A stretch of 64,000 bases of DNA from Glycomyces terrestris (GTDB taxonomy: Bacteria > Actinomycetota > Actinomycetes > Mycobacteriales > Micromonosporaceae). Below are positions 584-9,494 of this stretch, piece after piece; the first letter of the stretch is position 1, and every line of letters begins with the position of its first letter. Made by a program: the position numbers and the translations under genes. The stretch covers positions 744,001-808,000 of the forward strand of contig NZ_RSEB01000003.1 in the NCBI RefSeq assembly GCF_003933745.1, given 5' to 3'. A model generated the notes under the pieces. That model saw only the letters and a list, made by a program, of their open reading frames with translations. It did not search any database and had not been told where the DNA came from.

Positions 584-1951
584 TCACGCCGGCGCGAGCG
601 CCGGCTCCCCCTTGCGGGAGCCCTCGGCGTCCCCGCCGAACGCGGACTCCTCGTCCAGCGGCTGCGGGGCCGCGTCGTACACCTCGCGGTCGAGGAGGTC
701 CTCGGACTTCGCCACGATCACCGGCACCACCATCTGCCCGGCCACGTTCGTGGCCGTGCGGATCATGTCCATGATCGGGTCGATCGCCAGCAGCAGGCCC
801 ACGCCCTCGAGCGGCAGGCCCAGGGTCGACAGCGTCAGCGTCAGCATCACGGTCGCACCGGTCAGGCCCGCCGTCGCCGCCGAGCCGATGACCGACACGA
901 ACACGATGAGCAGGTAGTCCTGCACCGCCAGGTCCACGCCGTACACCTGCGCCACGAAGATCGCGGCGATGGCCGGGTAGATCGCGGCGCAGCCGTCCAT
1001 CTTGGTCGTCGCGCCGAACGGCGACGCGAACGACGCGTAGTCGCGGTCCACGCCGAGCCGGTCGGTCACGGTCTTCTGCGCCAGCGGCAGCGTGCCGACC
1101 GAGGAGCGGGACACGAACGCGAACTGGATCGCCGGCCACGCCTTCCGGTAGAACCGGACCGGCGAGACCTTCCCGAACACGCGCAGCAGCACCGGGTAGA
1201 CGACGAGCATCACGATGAGCGCGCCCGCGTAGATGTCGACGCTGAACACCGCGAGCGGCTCGAGCAGGTCCCAGCCGTACGCGTACACCGACTTCCCGAT
1301 CAGGGCCGCGGTGCCGACGGGCGCCAGGCGGATCACCCACCACAGGGCCTTCTGGACCAGTGCCAGCGCGGAGGCGTTGAACTTGAGGAACGGCTCGGCC
1401 TTGTCGCCGATCTTCGCGGCCGCCGCGCCCGCCACGATCGCGACGAACACGATCTGGAGGACGTTGACGTTCACGAACGCGTCCACGACGTTCGTGGGGA
1501 TGATGCCGGTCAGGAAGTCGGTCCACGACCCCTGCGTCTCGGGCGCGGCGGCCGCGCCGGAGAGCTCGACGCCCCGGCCCGGGTTCGTCGCCAGGCCGAT
1601 GGCGATGCCGATCACCACCGCGATGAGCGACGTGACCGCGAACCAGCCGAGGGTCTTGGCGACCAGCCGGCCCGCGTTCGCGAGGTTGCGCAGGTTCGCG
1701 ATCGACGCGACGATCGCGGTGAACACCAGGAACGGCACGATCAGGAACAGCAGCTGCACGAACAGCGTGCCGACCGTCTCCAAGGTGGTGCCGAGCCACG
1801 CGACGGACCACTCGCGGGCGGCCCAGCCGAGGACGAGGCCGACCACGAGGCCGACGAGCAGTTGCGCGGCGAACGGGAACCGCTTGCGGCGCTTGGACTT
1901 CGAATTCTCCTCCACGGCCGTGTCGGCCGTGTTCTCGGGAGCACTTGCCAT
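584..1951 (-). CDS. Dicarboxylate/amino acid:cation symporter (SDF/DAACS family)
   Basis: 455-aa member of the sodium/proton:dicarboxylate symporter family that takes up C4-dicarboxylates or glutamate/aspartate across the cytoplasmic membrane. Hallmarks are visible in order: hydrophobic helices from about residue 28, the serine-rich hairpin SRSSVGTLPL (281-290), the unwound TM7 motif KMDGCA (317-322, usually NMDGT) and the substrate-binding TM8 segment DPIMDMIRTATNVAGQ (391-406). The tail after residue 415 is acidic and probably cytosolic. The ATG start has the SD-like sequence AGAGGTAG just upstream. Substrate preference cannot be read from the sequence; the K in place of N in the TM7 motif is unusual but occurs in related carriers. 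It is monocistronic and convergent with the TetR gene. Confidence 0.9.
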   Translation of the reverse strand: MASAPENTADTAVEENSKSKRRKRFPFAAQLLVGLVVGLVLGWAAREWSVAWLGTTLETVGTLFVQLLFLIVPFLVFTAIVASIANLRNLANAGRLVAKTLGWFAVTSLIAVVIGIAIGLATNPGRGVELSGAAAAPETQGSWTDFLTGIIPTNVVDAFVNVNVLQIVFVAIVAGAAAAKIGDKAEPFLKFNASALALVQKALWWVIRLAPVGTAALIGKSVYAYGWDLLEPLAVFSVDIYAGALIVMLVVYPVLLRVFGKVSPVRFYRKAWPAIQFAFVSRSSVGTLPLAQKTVTDRLGVDRDYASFASPFGATTKMDGCAAIYPAIAAIFVAQVYGVDLAVQDYLLIVFVSVIGSAATAGLTGATVMLTLTLSTLGLPLEGVGLLLAIDPIMDMIRTATNVAGQMVVPVIVAKSEDLLDREVYDAAPQPLDEESAFGGDAEGSRKGEPALAPA

Positions 1952-5716: not shown

Positions 5717-5738
5717 TCCCGGGGCGACATCGAGGGTT

Positions 5739-5772
5739 GCGGGCGGCCGGGATGGTGTTCCCGGCCGCCCGC
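5739..5772 (+). terminator. Terminator of the subtilase gene
   Basis: Perfect 14-bp stem (GCGGGCGGCCGGGA / TCCCGGCCGCCCGC) with loop TGGTGT, 22 nt after the stop codon. A second 8-bp hairpin (5783-5803) follows immediately. Confidence 0.8.
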
Positions 5773-5948
5773 GCCTGTGACTGGCGGTCCTGCGTGGACC
5801 GCCGGGCGGGTGGCTTCCCGCGCGCGGTCTCGGTATGGCGACGTTCGCGATTCCCCTTCATATCGCCGCCATCCCGCAGGGCCAGATGGCTTTTTTGTCT
5901 CAACCGTGACACCGTCCGGGGTGGAGTGTCGAGAACGAATTTCCGGCC

Positions 5949-5957
5949 TGTGGATAA
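5949..5957 (-). other. DnaA-box-like 9-mer (TTATCCACA on minus strand)
   Basis: Exact match to the E. coli-type DnaA box. Streptomyces-type boxes usually read TTGTCCACA, so function is uncertain. Confidence 0.35.
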
Positions 5958-6094
5958 CTCGCGCCGCGCGCAGCCGCGCAGCGGTCGCCGCGCTGCGGCC
6001 GGTGGCCGGGCGGGTGCTGCGGAGCCTGTCGTGATGGCGCATGGGTCAACACTGGCACCGAGTGCCGCCAGGTGTCCAGCGCGAGTTCTCCGCC

Positions 6095-6103
6095 TGTGGA
6101 TAA
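6095..6103 (-). other. DnaA-box-like 9-mer (TTATCCACA on minus strand)
   Basis: Second exact match, 146 bp from the first, in the same orientation and with the same flanks (C-rich before, AAC-Y-CGC after). Confidence 0.35.
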
Positions 6104-6113
6104 CCGCCGCGAA

Positions 6114-6138
6114 CGGCCGGCGGCTTCGCCGCCGGCCG
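6114..6138 (-). terminator. Terminator of the SDR gene
   Basis: 11-bp perfect stem CGGCCGGCGGC / GCCGCCGGCCG closed by TTC, i.e. a C(UUC)G-type loop, directly after the minus-strand SDR stop. Confidence 0.75.
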
Positions 6139-6144
6139 ACCGGT

Positions 6145-7262: not shown

Positions 7263-9494
7263 ATGAACAACCGCACCGCCGTGCGCTCCACCGCGCTCGG
7301 CTACCCGCGCATCGGATCGAACCGGGAGCTCAAGCGCGCGCTCGAGGCCCACTGGTCCGGCCGGCTCGACGCCGCCGGGCTCGAGCGGGCCGGCGCCGCC
7401 GTCCGCGCCGAGATGCTCGGCGACCTGTCCGTGCTCGACTCGGTCCCGACCGGCGTCTTCTCCTACTACGATCACGTGCTCGACACCGCGTTCGCGGTGG
7501 ACGCCGTCGCCCCGCGGCACCGGCGCGACGACGAGCTCGCCTCCTACTTCGCCGCCGCCCGCGGGGACGCCGCGGCCGCGCCGCTCGAGATGACGAAGTG
7601 GTTCGACACGAACTACCACTACCTCGTGCCCGAGATCGGCCCCTCGACCGCGTTCGCCGCCCGGCCGGGGAAGGCCGTCGCCGAGTTCCTGGAGGCGCGC
7701 GAGCGCGGTCTGGACGCCCGGCCGGTGCTCGTCGGGCCCGTCTCGTTCCTGCTGCTGGCGAAGCCCGCGGACGGCGCGCCGGAGGGCTTCCGGCCGCTCG
7801 ACCGCATCGGCGACCTCGTGGAGGTGTACGCCGAGATCCTCACCGCGCTGGGCCGGGCGGGGGCCGGGTTGATCCAGCTGGACGAGCCCGCGCTCGCGGC
7901 CGACCGCACCCCGGAGGAGCTCGCGGCCGTCGCGGCGGCGTACCGGCGGCTCGTCGGCACCGCGGAGATCCTGGTGGCCGGCGGGTACGGCCCGTTCGGG
8001 GAGTCGCTGCCGGTGCTCCTGGAGGCCGGGGTCGAGGGGATCGCCCTCGACCTGGTGCGCGGCCGGGCGGATCTCGATGCACTTGAGGCACTGGATGTTT
8101 CACGTGAAACATTCGTGGTCGCCGGGGTGGTCGACGGGCGCAACATCTGGCGCACCGACCTGGCGGCGGCCGCCCGGGACGTCGAGCGGGTCCGGGCCCT
8201 GACCGACCGGGTCGGGGTCGCCTCGTCCTCCTCGCTGCTGCACGTCCCGGTCGACCTCGCCGCCGAGACCGACCTCGCGCCGGAGCTGGCCGCGCGGCTC
8301 GCGTTCGCGCGCCAGAAGCTCGCCGAGATCGCCGCGCTCGCCGACCCGGACGGGCCGCGCGACGCGCGCCCGGCGGCCCCGGACGCCTGGCGGGACGCGT
8401 CGGTGCGGTCCCGGCTCGCCGGCCTCGGCGCGGACGCGGACCGCCGGGCGCCCTACGCCGAGCGCCGCGCCGCGCAGGCCGAGCGGGTGCCGCTGCCGCC
8501 GCTGCCGACGACCACGATCGGCTCGTTCCCGCAGACCGCGGAGCTGCGCCAGGCCCGCGCCGCCCACCGGCAGGGCCTCATGATCGACGCCGACTACCGC
8601 GCCCGCATGCGGGCCGAGGTCGCGGCCGTCATCGCGGAGCAGGAGCGGCTCGGCCTCGACGTCCTCGTCCACGGCGAGCCCGAGCGCAACGACATGGTGC
8701 AGTACTTCGCCGAGCAGCTCACCGGCTTCGCGACGACCGCGGCCGGGTGGGTGCAGTCGTACGGCTCGCGCTGCGTGCGGCCCCCGATCCTGTTCGGCGA
8801 CGTGGCCCGGACCGCGCCGATGACGGTGCCGTGGACCTCGTACGCGCAGTCGCTCACCGCGAAGCCGGTGAAGGGGATGCTCACCGGGCCGGTGACGATC
8901 CTGGCGTGGTCGTTCGTGCGCGACGACCAGCCGCTCGCCGACACCGCCGACCAGGTGGCGCTCGCCCTGCGCGACGAGGTGGCCGACCTCGAGGCGGCCG
9001 GGACGGCGATCATCCAGGTCGACGAGCCCGCGCTGCGCGAGCTGCTGCCGGTGCGGGCGGCCGGGCGCGCCGCCTACCGGGCGTGGGCGACGCGGGCGTT
9101 CCGGATCGCGACCGCCGGAGTGCGGCCGGACACCGCGATCCACACCCACCTCTGCTACTCCGAGTTCGGGGAGGTCATCGACGCGATCGCCGCGCTCGAC
9201 GCCGACGTCACCTCGATCGAGGCGTCCCGCTCGAAGATGGAGGTCCTCGCCGACCTCGACGGCGCCGCCTACCGGAGCGCGGTCGGGCCGGGCGTGTGGG
9301 ACATCCACTCCCCGCGCGTGCCGGACGCCGCCGAGATGGCCGCGGCGCTGCGCCTCGCCGTGGCCGCGCTCGGGCCCGACCGGGTGTGGGCCAACCCCGA
9401 CTGCGGGCTGAAGACCAGGCGCTACGAGGAGGTCCTGCCGGCGCTCGCGGGGCTCGTCGAGGCCGCGCGCCTCGTCCGCGCCGAGGCCGCCTAG
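7263..9494 (+). CDS. metE: Cobalamin-independent methionine synthase MetE
   Basis: 743-aa 5-methyltetrahydropteroyltriglutamate-homocysteine methyltransferase, the last step of methionine synthesis without B12. Two homologous barrels are evident, the second starting at TTTIGSFPQT (about residue 416). Zinc ligands fit the pattern His and Cys in IHTHLCYSEF (about 626-635) and Cys in NPDCGLKTR (about 711-719). Length matches the family. ATG 7263 is preceded by GAGGGAAC. Expression should be controlled by the riboswitch in its leader. The coding sequence also contains a perfect parS palindrome at VSRET (8096-8111). Confidence 0.95.
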   Translation: MNNRTAVRSTALGYPRIGSNRELKRALEAHWSGRLDAAGLERAGAAVRAEMLGDLSVLDSVPTGVFSYYDHVLDTAFAVDAVAPRHRRDDELASYFAAARGDAAAAPLEMTKWFDTNYHYLVPEIGPSTAFAARPGKAVAEFLEARERGLDARPVLVGPVSFLLLAKPADGAPEGFRPLDRIGDLVEVYAEILTALGRAGAGLIQLDEPALAADRTPEELAAVAAAYRRLVGTAEILVAGGYGPFGESLPVLLEAGVEGIALDLVRGRADLDALEALDVSRETFVVAGVVDGRNIWRTDLAAAARDVERVRALTDRVGVASSSSLLHVPVDLAAETDLAPELAARLAFARQKLAEIAALADPDGPRDARPAAPDAWRDASVRSRLAGLGADADRRAPYAERRAAQAERVPLPPLPTTTIGSFPQTAELRQARAAHRQGLMIDADYRARMRAEVAAVIAEQERLGLDVLVHGEPERNDMVQYFAEQLTGFATTAAGWVQSYGSRCVRPPILFGDVARTAPMTVPWTSYAQSLTAKPVKGMLTGPVTILAWSFVRDDQPLADTADQVALALRDEVADLEAAGTAIIQVDEPALRELLPVRAAGRAAYRAWATRAFRIATAGVRPDTAIHTHLCYSEFGEVIDAIAALDADVTSIEASRSKMEVLADLDGAAYRSAVGPGVWDIHSPRVPDAAEMAAALRLAVAALGPDRVWANPDCGLKTRRYEEVLPALAGLVEAARLVRAEAA
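8096..8111. other. parS: parS site (ParB-binding palindrome) inside metE
   Basis: TGTTTCACGTGAAACA, a perfect 16-bp palindrome identical to the consensus ParB-binding site. It encodes part of VSRETF in MetE. In actinomycetes parS sites cluster near oriC, so the window is probably in the origin-proximal part of the chromosome. Confidence 0.88.

Follow-up and report, generated by a model that had tools for sequence, protein, structure and literature searches.

The window analysed here, a 64-kb stretch of DNA (C9:744001-808000 of the assembly), contains a gene for the cobalamin-independent methionine synthase MetE, assigned by its match to the NCBIfam family PRK05222 (NF003556) with a score of 985 bits (cut-off 541). 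The 16-bp palindrome TGTTTCACGTGAAACA lies 833 bp into its coding sequence and is read in frame as the pentapeptide VSRET (Table 1). The site agrees with the chromosomal parS consensus at all 16 positions. The consensus of the Noc-binding site (NBS) has a different centre, ATTTCCCGGGAAAT; the metE site carries the parS form, TTTCACGTGAAA, and does not fit the NBS consensus. An earlier note on this DNA had reported a perfect parS at this position, coding for VSRET, and had considered a chance match in 64 kb very unlikely. Position, frame and codons all agree with that description, and the estimate of rarity is borne out by calculation. In fact, the palindrome is the sole match in the window with three or fewer mismatches, where shuffled sequences give an expectation of 0.01, and under a third-order Markov model, fitted to over 100 kb of sequence from the same genome (GC 0.72), one would expect 3e-7 perfect copies per 64 kb and 3e-5 per 5.24-Mb genome.

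Table 1. Coordinates of features in the window and, where marked C9, on the contig.
Feature	Coordinates	Strand	Remarks
metE, B12-independent methionine synthase, 743 aa	7263..9494	+	parS host; open reading frame and NCBIfam match
parS palindrome	8096..8111	.	0 mismatches; seventh, outlying copy in the genome
VSRET codons GTT TCA CGT GAA ACA	8097..8111	+	V279 S280 R281 E282 T283 of MetE
Dicarboxylate symporter orthologue	584..1951
Gap between convergent S8 peptidase and SDR oxidoreductase genes	5717..6144		two units of about 59 bp
DnaA boxes of the two units	5949-5957 and 6095-6103
Six-copy parS cluster	C9:713573-718536		around parB, parA and rsmG
dnaA	C9:721947-723884
dnaN	C9:724277-725425
metE parS on the contig	C9:752096

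parS sites around the replication origin

Perfect copies of the palindrome number seven in the 5.24-Mb genome, and all fall within 39 kb of one another; no further match with fewer than three mismatches was found genome-wide, and a reversed control pattern gave no match in the genome. The gap between dnaA and dnaN, which contains about 16 DnaA boxes and near-boxes, is the usual actinomycete oriC, and it falls between parS copies 6 and 7, with the sites concentrated around it. Six copies form a cluster 5-11 kb from oriC on one side, and the metE copy lies 28 kb away on the opposite side. The parB product was identified by its TIGR00180 score (178 bits, cut-off 58) and by a phmmer match to the solved Spo0J/ParB chain 6sdk (5e-47), and a ParA-type ATPase gene adjoins rsmG, placing cognate ParA and ParB close to oriC. 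The earlier proposal that the window is origin-proximal is supported by this map, since oriC, parAB and six more perfect parS sites were all located 28-39 kb away on the same contig, with the metE copy across oriC from the rest.

Within the cluster, parB contains two copies and rsmG one, all three translated in frame to VSRET, and the remaining three occupy DNA without a convincing gene, which we take to be intergenic. The three coding copies are similar to the metE copy in their reading but differ in their setting: they belong to N-terminal stretches of ParB and RsmG that the family matches do not cover, and they adjoin parAB, whereas the metE copy falls within a folded enzyme, 28 kb past oriC. 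Two cluster copies (C9:713573 and 715250; L006:3573, 5250) are also the centres of longer perfect palindromes with 10-11 additional pairs per side, and comparable palindromes around parS are seen in the genus and its relatives (L141:7862; L168:9348, 12307; L163:6989), with 10-18 additional pairs per side overall. From their sequence, such palindromes resemble terminator hairpins in addition to being parS sites.

DnaA boxes are also found away from oriC. The two units in the gap between the convergent S8 peptidase and SDR oxidoreductase genes are 146 bp apart, and each consists of TCAACnnTGrCA, about 36 bp of spacer and CCTGTGGATAAC, ending in a perfect DnaA box. About ten species of the genus retain both boxes within otherwise diverged DNA. 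Of the 22 species, 12 carry one to four such units per genome, and a reversed control pattern gave no match. The unit is possibly a DnaA-binding or titration element. A second pair of boxes in the same genome (G000:C13:209778-209934, L169) has the same spacing of 146 bp, and the boxes upstream of dnaA are 144 bp apart. Dense clusters of DnaA boxes were also observed at C9:489056-489189 (L170), about 230 kb from oriC, where 134 bp hold four exact copies of CTGTGGATAAC along with several near matches, and at C9:832676-832697 (L171), about 110 kb from oriC.

Codon-level conservation and the MetE loop

All 22 genomes of the genus examined, one per species, contain metE, and in each the parS is present at the same place, although these species are kin and the counts are consequently not independent. 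The palindrome is perfect in 19 species and shows a single outer change in three (C for T at position 1, CGTTTCACGTGAAACA), the inner 15 nucleotides, GTTTCACGTGAAACA, being invariant throughout; no broken site was found among the 22. In one species (L020) the protein has three inserted residues immediately before VSRET, added in frame, and the site is intact there too. The surrounding gene is far less constrained, with protein identities to the MetE of the window of 77-90% and a mean pairwise identity of only 60% (minimum 46%) at the third bases of four-fold degenerate codons.

The selective nature of this conservation is illustrated by codon usage. Codons ending in A or T make up 7% of metE codons in the genus (93% end in G or C), and among 815 codon columns the five adjacent VSRET codons are the only ones with A or T at the third base in every one of the 22 species. 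Given the peptide and the codon usage of the gene itself, the probability of these rare A/T-ending codons is 1.7e-8 per gene. Other invariant V, S, R, E and T positions in metE use 1.8-2.9 different codons on average. The earlier note had seen in the site a coding constraint on a central enzyme, and had proposed to check whether the metE of relatives keeps the palindrome at synonymous positions. Within the genus both hold, in 22 of 22 species; the constraint does not extend further and is genus-specific, because the MetE proteins of other genera have neither the site nor VSRET.

In the AlphaFold model, residues 279-283 form a loop between a helix (269-277) and a strand (284-290), and confidence is high both for the whole protein (mean pLDDT 91) and for the VSRET stretch (91-96). 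Helix-to-strand loops of (beta/alpha)8 barrels face away from the active site. This loop holds unrelated residues, and often insertions or deletions, in the MetE proteins of named actinomycetes and of family members outside the genus (56-66% identity). Taken together, the modelled position and the length variation point to a permissive place for five residues dictated by the DNA. The possibility that parS arrived on a mobile element was considered and rejected, the MetE proteins of the closest outgroups being nearly the same length across the loop, with nothing to suggest an insertion.

The arrangement around the origin is also maintained. In every genome of the genus whose contig holds both the cluster and the metE site, dnaA lies between them, and, with one mismatch allowed, the 6 + 1 layout is seen in nearly all well-assembled genomes. 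G021 has a 7 + 1 layout, and G007, from an assembly that is 92% complete and in which no dnaA was found, has two parS sites only. The distance from the cluster to the metE site varies from 24 kb (G003) to 94 kb (G005), and what is kept is therefore the position in metE and the side of oriC rather than a fixed spacing.

Other genera and known systems

No parS was found in the metE genes of other family genera or of named actinomycetes. Nevertheless, a site with no more than one mismatch, across dnaA from the cluster, is present in 6 of 10 other genera tested, at 22-64 kb; these far-side sites are lone and mostly occupy apparently non-coding DNA. G034 has the most similar MetE outside the genus (66%), encoded about 1 Mb from dnaA, and its one-mismatch far-side site (L139:4054 = G034:C1:24054) lies in apparently non-coding DNA about 22 kb across dnaA, some 600 bp upstream of a dicarboxylate symporter gene. 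The orthologue of this symporter lies 6 kb from metE in the window, which suggests turnover of parS within one neighbourhood. A long palindrome in G033, some 26-27 kb beyond dnaA, contains TGTTTCACGGGAAACA, and one-mismatch sites lie across dnaA at about 23 kb in G025, 38 kb in G024, 37 kb in G031 and 63 kb in G022. Three genera share the asymmetric variant TGTTGCACGTGAAACA (or its complement) at 37-64 kb across dnaA, in DNA that looks non-coding (L164:6758, L165:7082, L166:6683); this variant may bind ParB weakly or not at all.

Four of the ten outgroup genera with dnaA placed (G030, G076, G080 and G103) lack a far-side site at one mismatch or fewer, and G067 has no parS site anywhere at this threshold; a second side is therefore not essential in the family. 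As judged from these genomes, a far-side parS is common in the family without being universal, and the sequence that hosts it differs by lineage. This pattern speaks for a function that depends on where the site lies and not on metE itself.

Occurrence of parS within coding DNA is known already from Corynebacterium glutamicum, where parS1 lies inside trpCF (PMC7083940). Like the metE copy, it has a similar 16-bp consensus and is the outermost member of an oriC-proximal set, placed in the coding sequence of an amino-acid biosynthesis gene. ParB binding to parS1 has been demonstrated by ChIP-seq and this site alone is sufficient for segregation (PMC7083940). For the metE copy, conservation across 22 species was measured in the present analysis. 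In that organism, the ten parS sites are all on one side of oriC, a single site does well, one oriC-proximal parS being enough for segregation, and from a lone site ParB occupies DNA as far as 16 kb to either side (PMC7083940). In contrast to this one-sided set, the metE copy stands alone across oriC from a six-site cluster. The Streptomyces chromosome likewise has parS concentrated near oriC, in unequal numbers on the two sides (about 80% right and 20% left), but it carries 11-65 sites rather than the seven found here as 6 + 1, and the reason for the uneven distribution over the two arms is called unclear by the authors (PMC8743542). A partial literature search returned no description of parS in metE, which is weak evidence of novelty; the new elements are how strongly the codons are conserved, the isolated position of the site on the far side of a two-sided layout, and the turnover between genera.

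Interpretation

The best explanation of these observations is that the palindrome is a genuine chromosomal parS, one of seven, overprinted on a change-tolerant MetE loop and acting as a functional centromere site on the far side, a reading to which we assign a probability of roughly 85% from the sequence comparisons. The metE stretch appears to serve DNA segregation beside its role in coding for the enzyme, and metE is probably merely the host, the far-side sites of other genera lying elsewhere.

A role in local gene control, in which ParB bound to the metE coding sequence would repress or tune metE or its neighbours and so couple methionine synthesis to the cell cycle, could account for the constant presence of parS inside metE in the genus, whatever its distance from oriC, and ParB can affect parS-adjacent genes in some species (PMC7022226). 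In Bacillus subtilis, however, loss of Spo0J left such genes unchanged (PMC7022226). The metE site is not in a promoter position, and G034 combines a metE remote from the origin with a far-side site elsewhere. Because the site is 833 bp inside the gene and other genera have far-side sites in other sequences, local control is considered unlikely. A chance or fossil origin, the latter being a parS once used whose decay is still to come, is very unlikely. A random occurrence is expected only about 3e-7 times per window, and five intact A/T-ending codons in 22 species, when other four-fold sites differ by about 40%, do not resemble decay, for which there has been ample time, as the scrambled synonymous sites elsewhere in metE show.

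Selection on the protein, with MetE needing VSRET and the palindrome a by-product, would explain the invariance of the peptide in the genus, yet it leaves unexplained why its five codons never vary when invariant residues of the same kinds elsewhere do, and VSRET as a protein motif is ruled out by this synonymous invariance. Also significant is that the identical peptide is read from parS in parB, twice, and in rsmG, that other genera tolerate unrelated residues and indels here, and that the stretch is modelled as an alpha-to-beta connection; selection for the peptide is accordingly extremely improbable.

It is established for other species that parS is where ParB loads, that ParB spreads from there in the form of CTP-dependent clamps, and that it recruits SMC. 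If the metE site is a functional parS, it would be bound by ParB dimers, which would form clamps in a CTP-dependent manner and then move away from it along the DNA, forming a second ParB-coated zone opposite the main cluster at parAB. ParB would then lie to either side of the origin, spreading from the site 28 kb one way and from the cluster 5-11 kb the other, and ParA-driven pulling and SMC loading would start from both arms, the presumed benefit of having two sides.

For the family as a whole, a lone parS opposite the parAB cluster could be under selection for its position, giving a two-sided centromere; such a site would be regained when lost while its host sequence turns over, and in this genus would have been captured inside metE, fixing codons and a surface peptide; we hold this wider reading tentatively, at slightly less than even odds. 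The metE parS offers a clean natural case in which an enzyme carries an overprinted segregation site at a cost that can be measured in codons and peptide, and it suggests that a 6 + 1 arrangement of parS at the origin recurs. Since the lone site could be removed by synonymous recoding, leaving the par genes and the protein untouched, the question of what a second side contributes would be directly testable.
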